In this document: positions 7,533 through 50,580 of the stretch, piece after piece
Layout of the letters: every line of letters begins with the position of its first letter
Numbering within the stretch: position 1 is the first letter of the stretch
From: a gamma proteobacterium symbiont of Taylorina sp.
GTDB taxonomy: Bacteria; Pseudomonadota; Gammaproteobacteria; GRL18
Assembly (NCBI GenBank): GCA_025655455.1
Contig: JAHXIV010000056.1
Coordinates: 1-64,000 of the forward strand
Length of the DNA: 64,000 bases
Reading direction: 5' to 3'
Notes under the pieces: generated by a model
Databases searched by the model: none
What the model was told of the DNA's origin: nothing
The model's input: the letters and a program-made list of their open reading frames with translations, nothing else
Made by a program: the position numbers and the translations under genes

Positions 7533-9545
7533 TTAAACAATATGGCTTAATAACATTGGCACATCCAATATTAAAGCAACTTCACCATTTCCCAGAATCG
7601 TACCACCACTTATCCAGGATATTTTTTCAAACACTTCTCCCAGTGGTTTTATCACAGTTTGAAATTCACCATGAAGTTCGTGTACTATCAAGCCGGCTAT
7701 TTGATTACCGCTATTCACTATAATAATATTTTCTCTTTCATAATCAACCCTGTTAATGTCAAAATAATCACCAATATCAAGCAGGGGTAATATTGAACCT
7801 CTCAAATTAATAAATTCATTATTTTTCATATTCGATCGGTTTTCAGAGGTTAATTCGATACACTCCTGAATCATCTCTAGAGGAATAATAAATTTGGTAT
7901 CGCCTGATTGAACCAGAAATCCATCTATAATCGCCAGGGTTAAAGGCAGGCAAACTGTTATTTTACTGCCCTGACCTAAAGTAGAATCAACATCAACTGT
8001 GCCTTTGAGTTCTTCAATATTTCTTTTGACCACATCCATGCCGACACCACGACCTGAAACATCTGATACACTCTCTGCAGTGGACAATCCCGCAGCAAAG
8101 ATAAGATTGTAAATTTCCTTATCCGTCAGCTGTGCAGTTGGGGAAACCAGTTTATTTTTAATTGCCTGAGCAAGAATAATCTCTTTTGGGATTCCAGCGC
8201 CATCATCCTCAACTTCTATTACAATGGAGCCTGCATCCGGATAAGCACGCAGATCAATGCGTCCCTTTTCTTTTTTCCCATTAGCAATGCGTTTTTCCAT
8301 AGATTCAATCCCATGATCCACAGAATTTCGCAACATATGCACCAGTGGATCAGAGATTTTTTCAACCACGCTTTTATCAAGCTCGGTATCTTCTCCACTG
8401 ATCACAAACTCTATCTGTTTTCCCAGTTTTTTTGCAGTGTCATTGACAATTCTTCTGAGTTTATTAAAACTACTGCCCACTTGTACCATGCGTATATCCA
8501 TTACACCGGTTCTAATCTCTTCAAGCATGGATGTCAGGGTATCTGCAGCTTCTAATAGTTCGATATTATCATCCATGTCAGCAATTTGAGTTATTTTTGC
8601 ATTGGCGATAACCATCTCACTAATGAGATTAATTAACTGGTCAACTTTTGATGAATCAACTCTGAGTGAAAAGTTTTTTTCTACGCGGGTTTCTTTTTTC
8701 TTTATTGGTTTAGCCAATGCATTTGAGGTGGGTTTAGCCTTTTCTGCAATAGATGGTTCTACAACGGCGGGTTCTACTGATTCAGTATTTTCTGTTTCAA
8801 TCTTTTCATTGATATTGATAATACTCAGATCTATATCGTCTTTGACAAATTCAAAAGCAGCGACTATCTCGTCTATAGGCTCTTCACATTGATATTGCAT
8901 CGATAGAGTGAGATAAGATTTTAAGGGTTCCAGTTGTTTGATATCGGGTATATCACTATCTTCAATTGTCAGGTTCGTAACATCCCCGATAACTCCTAAA
9001 TATTTAATGATAGCCATGATATCCATATCAGATTTAAAAAAACTATCTTTTGGTTTTATCGTGATATGATAGGATGAAATTTTATCAACAACAGCCTCTT
9101 CTGCTTCACTCTCCTTTTTGTCACTTTTAAGATCTAAAACATCAGGCTTGCCAAGCCCTGAAAAAGCAGAGAGCTGAGCCAGGATATCATTGTGACAGGT
9201 AAGTTGATCATCATCCAGTTGTTCATCTTGTACGGTTACATCGATTAAAGTTCTTGAATGGTCATTAACCAGTAAAAAAAGCTCAAGCATCGCTTGTGTT
9301 AAAACAATTTTTTTATTTCTAACCTGATCAAGTAGATTTTCAGCAACATGTGCAAAGGAAACCACATCATCAAAGCCAAACATGCCTGCATTACCTTTCA
9401 TGGTATGCATCGCACGAAAAAGTTTGTTGATCATCTCACTGTCAACTGCTTCAATAGATATCTCTGACATATCCATCAAAGTATCTTCCATAATGCTTAA
9501 TTGTTCGTCCATATCTTCACAAAACAGCTGCAGCTCTTCTGTCAT
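7533..9545 (-). CDS. cheA: CheA: chemotaxis histidine kinase
   Basis: CheA autophosphorylates on histidine in response to receptor state and passes phosphate to CheY, CheB and CheV. The 670-residue protein has an N-terminal HPt domain with phosphoacceptor His47 in [12 protein letters not shown] variable middle domain (about 150-250) follows, of uncertain relation to the CheY-binding P2. The dimerisation helices span about 290-360. The ATP-binding domain has the N box [16 protein letters not shown], the G1 box VEDDGAGIP and [20 protein letters not shown] CheW-like regulatory domain occupies about 515-668. Its ATG overlaps the stop of the STAS gene (ATGA), so the two are translationally coupled. 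All catalytic boxes look intact. Confidence 0.95.
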
Positions 9546-19264: not shown

Positions 19265-21793
19265 CTAGAGTGTCCTTTTAACCTGAACACGTTCAAAGAC
19301 TTCAATCTGATCACCGACTTTAACATCATTATAGTTTTTTACGCCGATACCACACTCCATGCCAGATTTGACTTCATTCACATCATCTTTAAAGCGCCTT
19401 AGTGATTCTAATTCACCCTCATAGATAACCACATTATCACGCAAGACACGGATAGGATTATTACGTTTAACCAGTCCTTCTGTTACCATACAACCGGCGA
19501 TTGAACCTATTTTTGGTGCCTTGAAAACATCTCTGACTTCAGCAAGTCCAATAATATCTTCTTTAAATTCAGGCAATAACATACCTGTCATTGCTGATTT
19601 CACTTCATCCAGCAGATCATAGATAATACTATAATAGTGCAAATCAATTTCTTCTGCTTCGATAACCTTTTTCGCTGCTGCATCGGCTCGAACATTAAAA
19701 CCTATCATAATAGCACCGGAAGCCAATGCCAGTTGAGCATCAGAAACATTAATACCACCGACCCCGTCAGAAACTACATTAACCTTAATTTCATCAGTAG
19801 ATAATTTTTTCAGCGATTCGCCGATGGCTTCAACGGAACCCTGGACATCCGCCTTTAAAACAACATTGACGGTCTGAACATCTCCAGATTCCATTTGAGT
19901 AAACATATTCTCAAGTTTAGCAGCTTGTTGTCTGGCCAACTTAATGTCACGATATTTACCCTGACGGAAAAGAGCAACCTCACGAGCCTTACGTTCATCC
20001 TTAACAACTAATACTTCTGCTCCAGCTGTTGGTGTACCGGACAGACCTAAAATTTCAACCGGAGTGGAAGGTCCTGCAGTTTTAATCTGCTTATTATTTT
20101 CATCCAGCATCGCTCGAACACGACCAAAATCCTGTCCGGCAATAACCATGTCACCCTTATGCATTTGACCACTCTGAACTAAAACCGTTGCAACAGTACC
20201 GCGTCCTTTATCAAGACGTGATTCAATAACGATGCCCTTTGCAGGGCCTTCTGCAACAGCCTTTAATTCCATAATTTCAGCAGTGACTGAGATGGCATCC
20301 AGTAACTCATCAATACCCTGACCTGTTTTAGCTGAAACAGGCACAAACATGACATCACCACCCCATTCTTCAGGAATAACATCCTGTGCTGACAACTCAT
20401 TTTTTACCCGTTCAGGATCGGAGGCTTCTTTATCAATTTTATTGATTGCAATAATAATAGGCACATTAGCAGCTTTAGAATGCTGTATTGCTTCCTTAGT
20501 CTGCGGCATTACACCATCATCAGCAGCAACAACAACAATAACAATATCAGTTGCATTAGCACCACGAGCACGCATTGAAGTGAACGCAGCATGTCCCGGT
20601 GTATCCAGGAAGGTAATCATACCCTTATCTGTATCAACATGATAGGCACCAATATGTTGAGTAATACCACCAGCTTCACCATCGGCTATTTTTGACTCTC
20701 TGATATAATCCAGTAAAGAAGTTTTACCATGGTCAACATGTCCCATAATCGTTACCACCGGAGAACGAGGCTTTTCTATACCATCACCATGAGAATCCAT
20801 CAGCGCTTCTTCGATTTGTTCATCTTTCATAAAGATGGGATTATGGCCCATTTCTTCAACAACAATTGAAGCTGTTTCCTGATCAAGCATCTGATTGATT
20901 GTCACCATACTGCCAAGATTCATCATCACTTTAATAATTTCACCAGCCTTAACCGATATTTTTTTAGCTAAATCACCGACTTTAATCGTTTCCGGTAATG
21001 AAACATCGATGACTTTGACTTCTGTGGGCATCTCAAACACGTGACGAGTTTCTATCTGAGGCTGCCTGGCTCCTTTTTTCTTTTTAAAACGTCCACCCGA
21101 TCTGTCATCAGCAGCAGATTTGTTTTTACGTCGGATTGTTGTTTTTTCAGCACTTTGTTTGGGTTTATCAGGATGACGTTTTTTAGCATGCTCTAACTTA
21201 TCTGGTTTATTTTCAGATCTCGGAGCTTCTTTAAGTATCGGTCTGGATTGTTTTTTGGCTAATTGTTCCGCTTCACGCTGATTATTAACTTTCTTTTCCT
21301 GTTTCTCTTTTGCCTGAAGTTCTTCCTGCTGCTGTTTTTTGGTTTCTTCCGCCAACCTGGATTTTTCCAGTTCTTGCTGTGCTTTTAAATCAGCCTGTTG
21401 TTTTTCAGCAGTCTGCTTTTCTTCCTGAGCGACCCGACGAGCTTCTAATAATTCAGCATCAGCAGATATTATCTTTGTATCAAGTTCACTTTTCTTGACA
21501 TAGGTGCGTTTTTTTCTAACTTCTACCTTGACTTTATTGCCGGTTTTATTAGAACTGGCTGATGTAGTCAATTCGCTGGTTGTTTTACGTCGCAAAACAA
21601 TTTTATTTGGCGATGTATTCTCAACAGAGCCATGTTTATTGCGTAAAAAAGCCAGCAGCTTTTGTTTTTCATCATCAGTGATGGTTGAATCCGGTCCGTC
21701 AACCTTAATATCAGCACCGTGCATCTGTTCAATAAGACGTTCTATGGGCGTGCCGACTGTTGCTGCAAATTGTGAAACTGTTATTTCTGACAT
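19265..21793 (-). CDS. infB: Translation initiation factor IF-2
   Basis: IF-2 is the GTPase that brings initiator tRNA to the 30S subunit and promotes subunit joining. The 842-residue protein starts with an IF2_N domain ([15 protein letters not shown]), then a long charged, Lys/Glu/Gln-rich linker (about 75-250) and a second IF2_N. The GTPase domain begins near 345 with [32 protein letters not shown] and SAKTGQG. The C-terminal domains follow, ending in [10 protein letters not shown]. Length is similar to E. coli IF2-alpha (890). It lies between nusA and rbfA. An alternative internal start giving a shorter IF2 form cannot be judged. Confidence 0.97.
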
Positions 21794-21814: not shown

Positions 21815-23380
21815 TTATTGCTTATCTTCTGTTTGCTGCTCTTCTGCTGTTACTGTATTTGAAACAGAGTCAGCGCTAGAGTCAGAGTCGGATTCAGCAA
21901 ACCAGGGAGCACGGGCTGTCATAATAATTTCAGCAGCTCGTTTTTCATCCAAACCTTCTATATCAATTAATTCATCAACTGATTGTTCAGCTAAATCTTC
22001 CATGGTAATAATATTTCTTGATGCCAGTTGGTGAGCTAGAGTCTCATCCATTCCATCCATCTCCAGTAAATCAGCCGCCGGATCAGCATCACCTAATTGT
22101 TCTTCATCACTAATAGCCTTAGTCAACAAGACATCTTTTGCCCGGTCTCTTAAAGCCAAAACAATGTCTTCATCCAGTTCTTCAATTTCAAGCATTTCCT
22201 GAATCGGCACATAGGCAACTTCTTCTAAAGAAGTAAAACCTTCATTAAGTAATATAATCGCCAGATCTTCATCAACAGTCAGATCATCCATTAATGTATT
22301 GAGTGCTTTTTCAGCATCCTCCTGATTCTTGTTTTCAGCTTCTTCAGCTGTCATTACATTGAGTTCCCAACCGGTTAATTGAGACGCTAGTTTAATATTT
22401 TGTCCATTGCGGCCGATGGCCATTGATAATTGCGATTCTTCAACGGCCACATCCATAGTGTGACGTTCTTCATCAACAACAATAGACTGTACTTCTGCTG
22501 GAGACATAGCATTAATAACGAATTGCGCAGGATTTTCATCCCATAAAATAATATCAACTCTTTCACCGGCCAACTCATTGGAAACAACCTGTACTCTTGA
22601 ACCTCGCATACCAACACAGGCACCCACCGGATCAATACGTTCATCATGTGCTTCAACAGCAATTTTTGCCCGTAAACCCGGATCACGGGCAGCGCTATGT
22701 ATCTGGATCAAGCCATCACCAATTTCAGGCACTTCTATTTTAAATAATTCTATTAAAAATTCAGATGAAACCCGACTTAAATTAAGCTGTGGTCCGCGGT
22801 TTTGAGTTTTAACATCAAAAAGATAACCTCGAACCCGATCACCGTTTCGTACTGGTTCCCTTGGGATCATATCTTCTCTTTTTACAATGGCATCAACATT
22901 GTTGCCAATATCAACGATAACATTACCTCTTTCAATTCTCTTAACTGTACCGGACAACATATCACCAATACGTTCCTGATATTCATCAACTACTTTCTTT
23001 CTTTCAGCTTCTCTGACTTTCTGCACTATCACCTGTTTGGCAGCTTGTGCTGCAATGCGACCAAATTCAACAGATTCAATGGATTCTTCAATAAATTCAC
23101 CCGGATTAATCTCAGGATTATCATCAATAACCCGTGAAAGCAGAACTTGTTTGTCATAATATTCGAAAGGATCCACTTCATCATCAAGCACCTGCCAGCA
23201 GCGAAAAGTCTCATAATCACCGGTATTTCTGTCTATATCCACTCTAACTTCAACATCCTTGGTATATTTCTTCTTCGTTGCAGAAGCTAAAGCAAGTTCA
23301 AGTGCCTGGAAAATAATTTCTTTTTCAATGCCGCGTTCATGTGCAACAGTATCAACGACCAGGAGGATTTCTTTACTCAT
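21815..23380 (-). CDS. nusA: Transcription termination/antitermination factor NusA
   Basis: NusA binds RNA polymerase and modulates pausing, termination and antitermination. The 521-residue protein has the N-terminal polymerase-binding domain (MSKEILLVVDTVAHERGI onward), an S1 domain near 135-200 (SGTVKRIERGNVIVDIGN), and two KH domains with VGMRGSRVQVVSNELAGE and AIGRNGQNIKLASQLTGW. Two C-terminal acidic helix-hairpin repeats (about 370-500) complete the gammaproteobacterial form. The C-terminus is Ser/Asp/Glu-rich. It follows rimP and precedes infB by 21 bases. Confidence 0.97.
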   Translation of the reverse strand: MSKEILLVVDTVAHERGIEKEIIFQALELALASATKKKYTKDVEVRVDIDRNTGDYETFRCWQVLDDEVDPFEYYDKQVLLSRVIDDNPEINPGEFIEESIESVEFGRIAAQAAKQVIVQKVREAERKKVVDEYQERIGDMLSGTVKRIERGNVIVDIGNNVDAIVKREDMIPREPVRNGDRVRGYLFDVKTQNRGPQLNLSRVSSEFLIELFKIEVPEIGDGLIQIHSAARDPGLRAKIAVEAHDERIDPVGACVGMRGSRVQVVSNELAGERVDIILWDENPAQFVINAMSPAEVQSIVVDEERHTMDVAVEESQLSMAIGRNGQNIKLASQLTGWELNVMTAEEAENKNQEDAEKALNTLMDDLTVDEDLAIILLNEGFTSLEEVAYVPIQEMLEIEELDEDIVLALRDRAKDVLLTKAISDEEQLGDADPAADLLEMDGMDETLAHQLASRNIITMEDLAEQSVDELIDIEGLDEKRAAEIIMTARAPWFAESDSDSSADSVSNTVTAEEQQTEDKQ

Positions 23381-23414: not shown

Positions 23415-23891
23415 TTAAAATTTTGCCACTAAATTAGCTTTTTCAATGTCTAAAAAAGGAATGCTTATTATTTCATTATTTTCGTCACTAAAAAGAATAT
23501 TATCGTCTTCAATTGAAGTGATAGTTGCTCTAAATTTGCGTTGTCCTGTGCCAATATTAGCACCGTGCTGAGGACGAAAAGTCTTAAATTTAACTTCCTG
23601 ACCAATAAATTGTTCAAAATGAGCAAGCTTAAATAAGGGTCTGTTCATACCGGGAGAAGACACTTCCAGAGTATATTCATCACTAATAGGATCTTCAACG
23701 TCTAATACAGCACCTATCTGACGACTTACAAGTGCACAGTCATCAACATTGACTCCTGCCGGGGAATCAATATAAATCCTCAAAATAGAATGACGCCCTT
23801 GAGAAATATACTCTAAGCCAACAAATTCATAGTCCATAGAGCTGACTACAGGTTCTAATAGTGTTTCCAGTTGTTGGCTTTTTACTATCAA
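23415..23891 (-). CDS. rimP: Ribosome maturation factor RimP
   Basis: RimP assists assembly of the 30S subunit and leads the nusA-infB operon in most bacteria. The 158-residue protein has the family pattern LEPVVSSMDYEFVGLEY, LRIYIDSPAGVNVDDCALVSRQIGAVLDVED, YTLEVSSPGMNRPLFK and the C-terminal SH3-like domain. The first codon is TTG with a GAGAT ribosome-site-like stretch upstream. No ATG is available that would keep the conserved N-terminus. A terminator-like hairpin lies 86 bases before this start. Confidence 0.95.
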   Translation of the reverse strand: MIVKSQQLETLLEPVVSSMDYEFVGLEYISQGRHSILRIYIDSPAGVNVDDCALVSRQIGAVLDVEDPISDEYTLEVSSPGMNRPLFKLAHFEQFIGQEVKFKTFRPQHGANIGTGQRKFRATITSIEDDNILFSDENNEIISIPFLDIEKANLVAKF

Positions 23892-23976
23892 TGACTTATA
23901 TCTCGTTTAAAAAATTCTTTCATCCTGCCTGTCTCTACACTTTAGTATGCTTTTCAGTATAAGCTCTTCAATAAGC

Positions 23977-24000
23977 AAAAAAAAATGGGCCATAGGCCCA
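23977..24000 (-). terminator. Terminator hairpin upstream of rimP
   Basis: The minus strand reads a perfect 6-base stem TGGGCC / GGCCCA with a 3-base loop followed by nine T residues. It lies between a strong promoter (24128-24156) and rimP, so it either ends a separate small RNA or attenuates the rimP-nusA-infB operon. Confidence 0.85.
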
Positions 24001-24121
24001 CTCTCTCGATTCCTGTTCAAAATAACACTGAAACAGGCTGGAAATCAGATAATTTCCTTTGTAGTTCTTTATAGTAAATATACTGAAGAGCCGTCAGCCA
24101 GAAAACTGCTCTTAATTAATG
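23977..24121 (-). ncRNA. Candidate small RNA or attenuated leader of the rimP operon (~145 nt)
   Basis: The 314-base gap before rimP holds, in order on the minus strand, a sigma-70 promoter, a hairpin AAGAG(C)/GCTCTT (24086-24113) with an inner CAG/CTG, a hairpin GGAAAT/ATTTCC (24040-24057), a hairpin CCTGTT/AACAGG (24012-24037), and a terminator (23977-24000). A transcript from about 24121 would be about 145 nt and almost fully structured. No ORF fits. It lacks tRNA features, although this locus carries a tRNA in E. coli (metY). It could be a free RNA or a leader controlling NusA/IF2 expression. I cannot match it to a known family. Confidence 0.6.
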
Positions 24122-24127
24122 CGCTAG

Positions 24128-24156
24128 ATTATAGGGTTAAGTGCCTTTCATAGCAA
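24128..24156 (-). promoter_or_regulatory. Strong sigma-70 promoter upstream of the rimP-nusA-infB operon
   Basis: The minus strand reads TTGCTA, a 17-base spacer, and a perfect TATAAT. The expected start of transcription is near 24121, ahead of the hairpin string and terminator. Confidence 0.65.
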
Positions 24157-24205: not shown

Positions 24206-24844
24206 TTATTTTTTCTTCCATATTCCATTTTGAGACTGATACATCCATCCTGAAGAAATTTTATTAATCCAGGTCTTACTGAATGTTTTTTGAATATCTG
24301 CCCGCCATTCAGGATGACCATTTGCATTAGCTATTTCACTATAAAGTGCATTTCTATCCTTATTTTCAGCCTTGATTAAATTTTTTGCTTTAGATTTTTG
24401 TTTAACTGACAATTTTTTACCGCTGACCAGTGCAATCAAACCATTATTTGTAAATCCAATGCTGCCGGACTGATAGTAAGGCTGCAGCTTTGACTGTCTT
24501 TTTCCCATACTATTTCTAATAGATCGTATTTTTGCTGATTCTATTGAAATGTTGGCCTGCCCTGCCTGTGCTGTTGGAATAAAAAAGTCCAGTACGGCAA
24601 TCAATGAGTGATTTTTTCTATAAATAAAATTACTTTGTGGCTCAGACAGTGAGTCAACTGGTTTAGACTGCAGGACTTCATCAATAATTTGCTCGGCTGC
24701 TTTTTCAGCTGCCGCTGCAGGAAAATAGATATTAATTGTGACACAGGAGATAATAGTTAAACTAATTAACAGACCAAGAAATAATTGACGTAATTGATTT
24801 TTTTTTATGCTATTAGGATTAAATTTTAAAGTAATTGAATTCAT
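24206..24844 (-). CDS. Lipoprotein with YdbL-like (DUF1318) domain
   Basis: This 212-residue protein begins with a long basic n-region, a hydrophobic helix and a lipobox ending at Cys34 (TIISCVTINIYFPAAAAEKAAE). The C-terminal half matches the YdbL/DUF1318 family: NNGLIALVSGKKLS, KAENKDRNALYSEIANANGHPEWRADIQKTF and a closing WINKISSGWMYQ. It lies 77 bases after the YdbH-like gene. In E. coli ydbH is followed by ynbE (a tiny lipoprotein) and ydbL (a periplasmic protein). Here a single lipoprotein carries the YdbL domain and no separate ynbE is present, so this gene may combine both roles; that part is inference. Confidence 0.8.
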   Translation of the reverse strand: MNSITLKFNPNSIKKNQLRQLFLGLLISLTIISCVTINIYFPAAAAEKAAEQIIDEVLQSKPVDSLSEPQSNFIYRKNHSLIAVLDFFIPTAQAGQANISIESAKIRSIRNSMGKRQSKLQPYYQSGSIGFTNNGLIALVSGKKLSVKQKSKAKNLIKAENKDRNALYSEIANANGHPEWRADIQKTFSKTWINKISSGWMYQSQNGIWKKK

Positions 24845-50270: not shown

Positions 50271-50299
50271 TTGACAAGCCCACATTTGATTCATAGAAT
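50271..50299 (+). promoter_or_regulatory. Sigma-70 promoter of the btuB riboswitch transcript
   Basis: A perfect TTGACA, a 17-base spacer and TAGAAT lie about 40 bases before the first conserved riboswitch segment. The predicted start of transcription is near 50306. Confidence 0.75.
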
Positions 50300-50344
50300 A
50301 TGGCGCTATTCTTGTGGTGTTTTATTCTTATTCTTAATTTGTTC

Positions 50345-50580
50345 AGAATAGAAAAAACAGGGAAATTGGTTAAATTCCAATGCTGCCCCCGCAACGGTAA
50401 TTGAATGTACGATAGTGGAATCCACTGTATTCTATCATCTATGATGAGTGTAAAGAATATGGGAAGGAACTATCGATAATTACGCTTTTGATTTAAGGCG
50501 TATTTCTTCATAAGCCCGGAGACCGACCAGGAGAATGACCTTAACCATGCGGTGGGCAGTGGTTGAAGCGGGCTATCGAT
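50345..50580 (+). ncRNA. Cobalamin riboswitch upstream of btuB
   Basis: The segment has the conserved cobalamin-riboswitch order: AACAGGGAAATTGGTTAAAT, then CTGCCCCCGCAACGGTAA, a variable arm (hairpin AGTGG/CCACT at 50414-50426), the B12 box AAGCCCGGAGACCGACC at 50512-50528, and a closing ATGCGGTGGGCAGTGG. It lies about 100 bases before btuB and after a strong promoter. On binding adenosylcobalamin such RNAs shut off expression, here of the whole uptake and salvage operon. The rest of the 519-base gap (50160-50344) holds only the promoter. Confidence 0.95.

Follow-up and report, generated by a model that had tools for sequence, protein, structure and literature searches.

A probable rimP-leader attenuator in front of rimP-nusA-infB in a gammaproteobacterial symbiont

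The window, that is, the whole 64,000-nucleotide stretch of symbiont DNA that was analyzed, carries a rimP-nusA-infB operon on its minus strand, preceded by a gap in which a promoter sequence and a terminator sequence can be recognized:

19265 to 21793, minus strand: infB (Pfam IF2_N, GTP_EFTU and IF-2)
21815 to 23380, minus strand: nusA (Pfam NusA_N, S1, KH and HHH)
23415 to 23891, minus strand: rimP, with a TTG start (Pfam RimP_N and RimP C-terminal domain)
23977 to 24007, minus strand: rimP-leader intrinsic terminator, GAGAGAGUGGGCC-UAU-GGCCCAUUUUUUUUU, with its stem at 24007-23979 and its U-run continuing to 23977
24128 to 24156, minus strand: sigma-70-type promoter, with -35 TTGCTA at 24156-24151, a 17-nt spacer and -10 TATAAT at 24133-24128

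The TTG start of rimP, at 23891, aligns with the ATG of relatives. Between the terminator and rimP there is a frame of 11 codons (MKEFFKRDISH, 23888-23923, minus strand), the TGA of which overlaps the rimP TTG. The nearest relative (L002), which has the only other TTG start, shows the same overlap with an unrelated frame of 17 codons, and the TTGA arrangement is absent from the other 21 loci checked. Translational coupling of the 11-codon frame to rimP is possible. On the far side of the promoter lies a gene (24206-24844, minus strand, with its stop at 24206) for a protein of 212 amino acids, whose N-terminus is lipoprotein-like and whose C-terminal domain is DUF1318, adjoined by a gene for a 783-amino-acid protein that has no Pfam match. 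We take DUF1318 to be a YdbL-type domain; presumably, the 212-residue protein may be a YnbE-YdbL-type fusion and its 783-residue neighbor YdbH-like.

Since promoter- and terminator-like consensus sites are frequent in A+T-rich sequence, such sites prove little by themselves. The promoter, TTGCTA-17-TATAAT, matches the consensus at 10 of 12 positions and is followed by the discriminator CTAGCGC (minus strand). The earlier note, made from the letters of this DNA alone, had called it near-perfect; a promoter is indeed present and conserved, but 10 of 12 makes it a good one, short of near-perfect. Its family form, CTTGCTATGA...CCCTATAATCTAGC, is almost invariant in all 20 loci of the window's family that contain the region (the window's and 19 more), and no other site in the 4.5 Mb genome matches CTTGC-N18-CTATAATNNNGC perfectly. 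It lies approximately 230 nt upstream of rimP and has been kept across the family although the gene upstream of it changes: the DUF1318 gene is the neighbor in L001 and L002, and a CBS-domain-like gene ends there in L003 and L020. In other families, the upstream neighbor is often an initiator tRNA.

The terminator has a stem of 13 pairs followed by a run of 9 U, with the core UGGGCC-UAU-GGCCCA-UUUUUU, and ends 85 nt before the rimP TTG, so that the strong terminator claimed at about 86 bases from rimP is where it was said to be. Judged by consensus alone, terminator sites are within chance (1 found in a stretch of 2.5 kb, with 1.6 expected). The exact motif, however, is unique both in the window (0.01 expected) and in the genome. 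Among the genomes of 144 relatives, the core GGGCCNNNGGCCCANTTTTT gave 40 matches in 39 genomes (the palindromic stem makes one genome count on both strands), all of them lying before rimP at a distance of 21-137 nt and none elsewhere, and a reversed control pattern in the same search gave no match. In a looser form, the motif is found at 22/22 loci of the window's family and at 45/66 loci of other families; the E. coli equivalent, UGGGCUUUAGGCCCUUUUUUU, lies 17 nt before rimP. Since every match to the motif sits at rimP, the terminator belongs to the rimP operon. Comparison with relatives thus settles, on the level of sequence, that promoter and terminator exceed chance.

Could the terminator simply end the upstream transcription unit, that of the DUF1318 gene stopping at 24206, next to an unrelated promoter and with no regulation involved? 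Transcripts of the upstream genes, which lie on this strand too, would reach it. However, the DUF1318 gene is separated from the terminator by the promoter, and the terminator stays with rimP while the upstream neighbor changes. In addition, the GGG/CCC of the stem is kept as sequence, with the innermost pair varying (C-G, U-A or A-U), and this conservation exceeds what a generic stop would need. A mere end of the upstream unit is thus very improbable.

An element of this kind has been described before. The rimP-leader is found in many bacteria as a GGGc...gCCC stem 4-130 nt from the gene, and since no antiterminator was seen, a protein effector, NusA, was proposed (Naville & Gautheret 2010, PMC2965389). 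The window's element resembles this general form (Fig. 2b of that paper) in its place before rimP-nusA-infB, its G-rich 5' arm and C-rich 3' arm with GGGc...gCCC, its U-run, its distance from rimP (85 nt) and the absence of an antiterminator; it differs in having a family-specific hairpin (H4, below) just upstream and a conserved promoter of its own. It is a member of the general rimP-leader, and we consider, with a probability of about three in four, that it acts as a transcription attenuator of the rimP-nusA-infB operon. Although conserved, it is an unremarkable representative, and the words "previously unnoticed" of the earlier note do not hold for this kind of element.

The Rfam model of the element does not recognize it. 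The covariance search proposed as a check in the earlier note gave no match to RF01770 (gathering score 47 bits), either in the window, in the gap at E<=10 or in the genome, whereas the E. coli leader scores 102 bits. RF01770 describes the tandem form, which in E. coli has the order metY - t1 - t2 - rimP. The window shares with this form the operon and the downstream terminator, t2, but lacks both the upstream one, t1 (CCCg...cGGG), and the initiator tRNA that comes before it. A more permissive Rfam scan returned Bp1_162, L20 leader and SraG, which are chance-level partial matches that pick up the terminator hairpin.

No tRNA or tRNA remnant was found in the gap before rimP, as the earlier note had observed in comparing the locus with E. 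coli, where metY occupies this position; the operon here accordingly does not begin with an initiator tRNA gene in the manner of metY-nusA-infB. At 66 rimP loci of other gammaproteobacterial families, an initiator tRNA lies upstream in 49, the CCC...GGG terminator is present in 38 and GGGC...GCCC in 45. In the window's family, the initiator tRNA and the CCCg...cGGG upstream terminator (t1) are each found at 0/22 loci and t2 at 22/22, which identifies t2 as the retained part. From this distribution, the family has evidently lost the initiator-tRNA gene together with t1, and only t2 remains.

The sole intact gene for initiator tRNA that the genome was found to contain is on a different contig (C2:276348). 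There (L124, C2:275500-277094) it lies close to the contig end and is followed by opposite-strand sequence resembling a tyrosine recombinase, so that it may be an integration site for mobile elements. Elsewhere (L125, C60:6005-6050 and 9188-9232) there are two fragments of approximately 45 nt that are 96% identical to the 3' half of the initiator tRNA, with no whole tRNA, as is typical of attachment-site copies left behind by mobile elements.

The stretch between promoter and terminator would be transcribed into a short, folded RNA:

23977 to 24121, minus strand: predicted attenuated leader RNA of approximately 145 nt, its start placed 7 nt past the -10 box
24086 to 24113, minus strand: hairpin H1, AGAGC...GCUCU, individual to this genome and, in the leader without its terminator, not above chance
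24073 to 24084, minus strand: hairpin H2, 4 bp, negligible, from fold prediction
24040 to 24057, minus strand: hairpin H3, GGAAAU...AUUUCC, from fold prediction and weak covariation
24012 to 24037, minus strand: hairpin H4, CCUGUU...AACAGG, adjoining the 5' side of the terminator, from family conservation and compensatory changes

The coordinates and the length of about 145 nt given in the earlier note are right. The full leader has a minimum free energy of -42.3 kcal/mol and a z-score of -4.1 against shuffled sequence, and most of this excess stability is due to the terminator; without it, the leader is marginally more stable than shuffled sequence (z -1.8 or -1.1 in two computations), which makes the other hairpins unconvincing from this genome alone. 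The mean z-score of the terminator-less leader across 20 family loci, including the window's, is -2.7. Four hairpins besides the terminator had been claimed. Of these, H4 is borne out by comparison with relatives, H1 and H3 are weak and H2 is negligible; no conservation of H1 or H2 was found across the family loci. A hairpin of the GGAG/CUCC type occurs at the position of H3 in most relatives, with weak covariation (P 0.027) and with pairs broken in L005, L010 and L013.

H4 is at the same position in nearly all of the 20 family loci, with a highly variable loop. The covarying pairs include U-A, U-G and C-G at one position and G-C and A-U at another, and L006 has a very different stem, UCCAUUC/GAAUGGA. 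Aligning the gap in relatives, as the earlier note had advised, thus does reveal a stem with compensatory changes. MAFFT with RNAalifold on the leader recovers the terminator only, and H4 was therefore tested with hand-chosen, anchored arms. Of 112 pair cells, 101 are paired, compared with a mean of 93.2 when the 3' arms are reassigned between species and with none of 20,000 shuffles reaching 101; anchoring by hand leans towards pairing and the species, being related, are not independent, and the reassignment control partly answers the first of these biases while shared ancestry remains. For these reasons the covariation of H4 is good evidence, short of final. One member of the genus, L020 (G010), has a natural deletion: its leader is only about 62 nt long, the hairpins are absent and the terminator is weakened to GGGCC/AGCCC. 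Thus, the hairpins are not essential to the rimP-leader element.

In many relatives H4 is followed by a short U-tract, and the two together could be a second, weak terminator that replaces metY-t1 and makes the leader a tandem attenuator of the E. coli type. In favor of this are the conservation of H4 with its compensatory changes, the 4-6 U found after it in many relatives (for example, GAACAGGAAUUUUUAAGAG), and the CCCG...CGGG terminator that lies ahead of the rimP terminator in E. coli and numerous others. In the window, however, H4 is followed by AAUCGAGAGAG, which holds no U-tract; its stems of 5-7 bp and the very long loops of several relatives are poor for intrinsic termination, and a site for RNase III or a protein would explain H4 equally well. 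We therefore consider a second terminator at H4 unlikely. It is similarly doubtful, if conceivable, that the covarying H3-H4 pair took the place of the lost tRNA and t1 as a separate sensor controlling the rimP terminator, which would make the architecture of the attenuator lineage-specific and hitherto undescribed; in that case the pair would, tentatively, serve as an additional weak terminator, as a site for RNase III or as a hairpin that binds a protein.

Another possibility is that the short RNA is the product that matters, that is, an independent, trans-acting small regulatory RNA with the terminator as its 3' end, and with rimP reached mainly by readthrough. It would have its own strong promoter, a stable fold and a long U-run, and the attenuator-derived sRNAs listed as associating with ProQ include the rimP leader of Salmonella (PMC5391140). 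Against this, conservation is poor beyond the promoter, H4 and the terminator, most of the leader sequence 5' of the terminator being unconserved and its length ranging from approximately 40 to 190 nt among relatives, and the linkage of the terminator motif to rimP holds in every genome, as a cis element predicts. An independent trans function, to which nothing points, is thus quite improbable; of the small RNA that the earlier note had proposed as one of two readings, what stands is a possible by-product of the kind seen in Salmonella.

How would the rimP-leader work? RNA polymerase would start at the conserved promoter, make the hairpin-rich leader and meet the GGGCC/GGCCC terminator, where some polymerases would stop and release the RNA of approximately 145 nt, while others would read through so that rimP, nusA and infB are expressed. 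NusA would likely increase termination and thereby limit its own operon. Placed after a conserved promoter and ahead of the first gene, a terminator is bound to lower operon expression except where readthrough occurs, and attenuation, which follows from this anatomy, is judged highly probable. There is some evidence on the other side, namely the variable length and mostly unconserved sequence of the leader and the short leader with weaker terminator in L020. With its strong stem and run of 9 U, the terminator could also be a nearly constitutive stop.

The identity of the effector is less firmly indicated. No conserved pairing of an antiterminator with either arm of the terminator was found in the family leaders (mean p 0.44 and 0.48); the near-identical L011 and L013 have a duplex of -12.8 kcal/mol with a terminator arm (p 0.01-0.02) that is absent from the other loci. 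Together with the conservation of GGG/CCC as sequence, this makes a protein effector likelier than an RNA switch. A leader for boxA/Nus processive antitermination was considered and rejected: there is no conserved boxA (UGCUCUUUA) in the leaders, the best matches having 1-4 mismatches and lying at unrelated positions. By analogy with other bacteria, NusA is, somewhat more likely than not, the main effector. In E. coli, where rimP is preceded by t1 and t2, transcripts of the operon become more abundant on a reduction of NusA-dependent termination (PMC6511841), and in S. agalactiae a single start site gives rise to rimP transcripts of a short and a long form (PMC4448216). According to the account of Mondal et al. 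2016 in PMC12288461, NusA of B. subtilis is autoregulated through NusA-stimulated termination in its own leader. The mechanism described there is alike, in that NusA-stimulated intrinsic termination would limit operon expression; it has been demonstrated in B. subtilis, whereas for the window we infer it, as we do actual transcription and termination at the leader. An E. coli rimP reporter decreases in a rho mutant, pointing to other layers of control as well. An operon-attenuating leader with NusA feedback, the other reading put forward in the earlier note, is thus the best supported, being a published element with support in other bacteria.

The general rimP-leader being already known, the new part is small and may lie in the fact that one family has lost metY and t1 and in the covarying H4 beside t2. 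The known range of the element now takes in a family of Gammaproteobacteria with an RNA that escapes the Rfam model. That t2 was kept when the tRNA gene and t1 were lost supports t2 as the core regulatory element, and a family with t2 as the only recognised terminator before rimP would allow autoregulation by NusA to be tested more cleanly than in E. coli, with its overlapping set of two terminators, three promoters and a tRNA. Elsewhere in the window, on the plus strand, there is a cobalamin riboswitch at 50298-50545 (84.9 bits).
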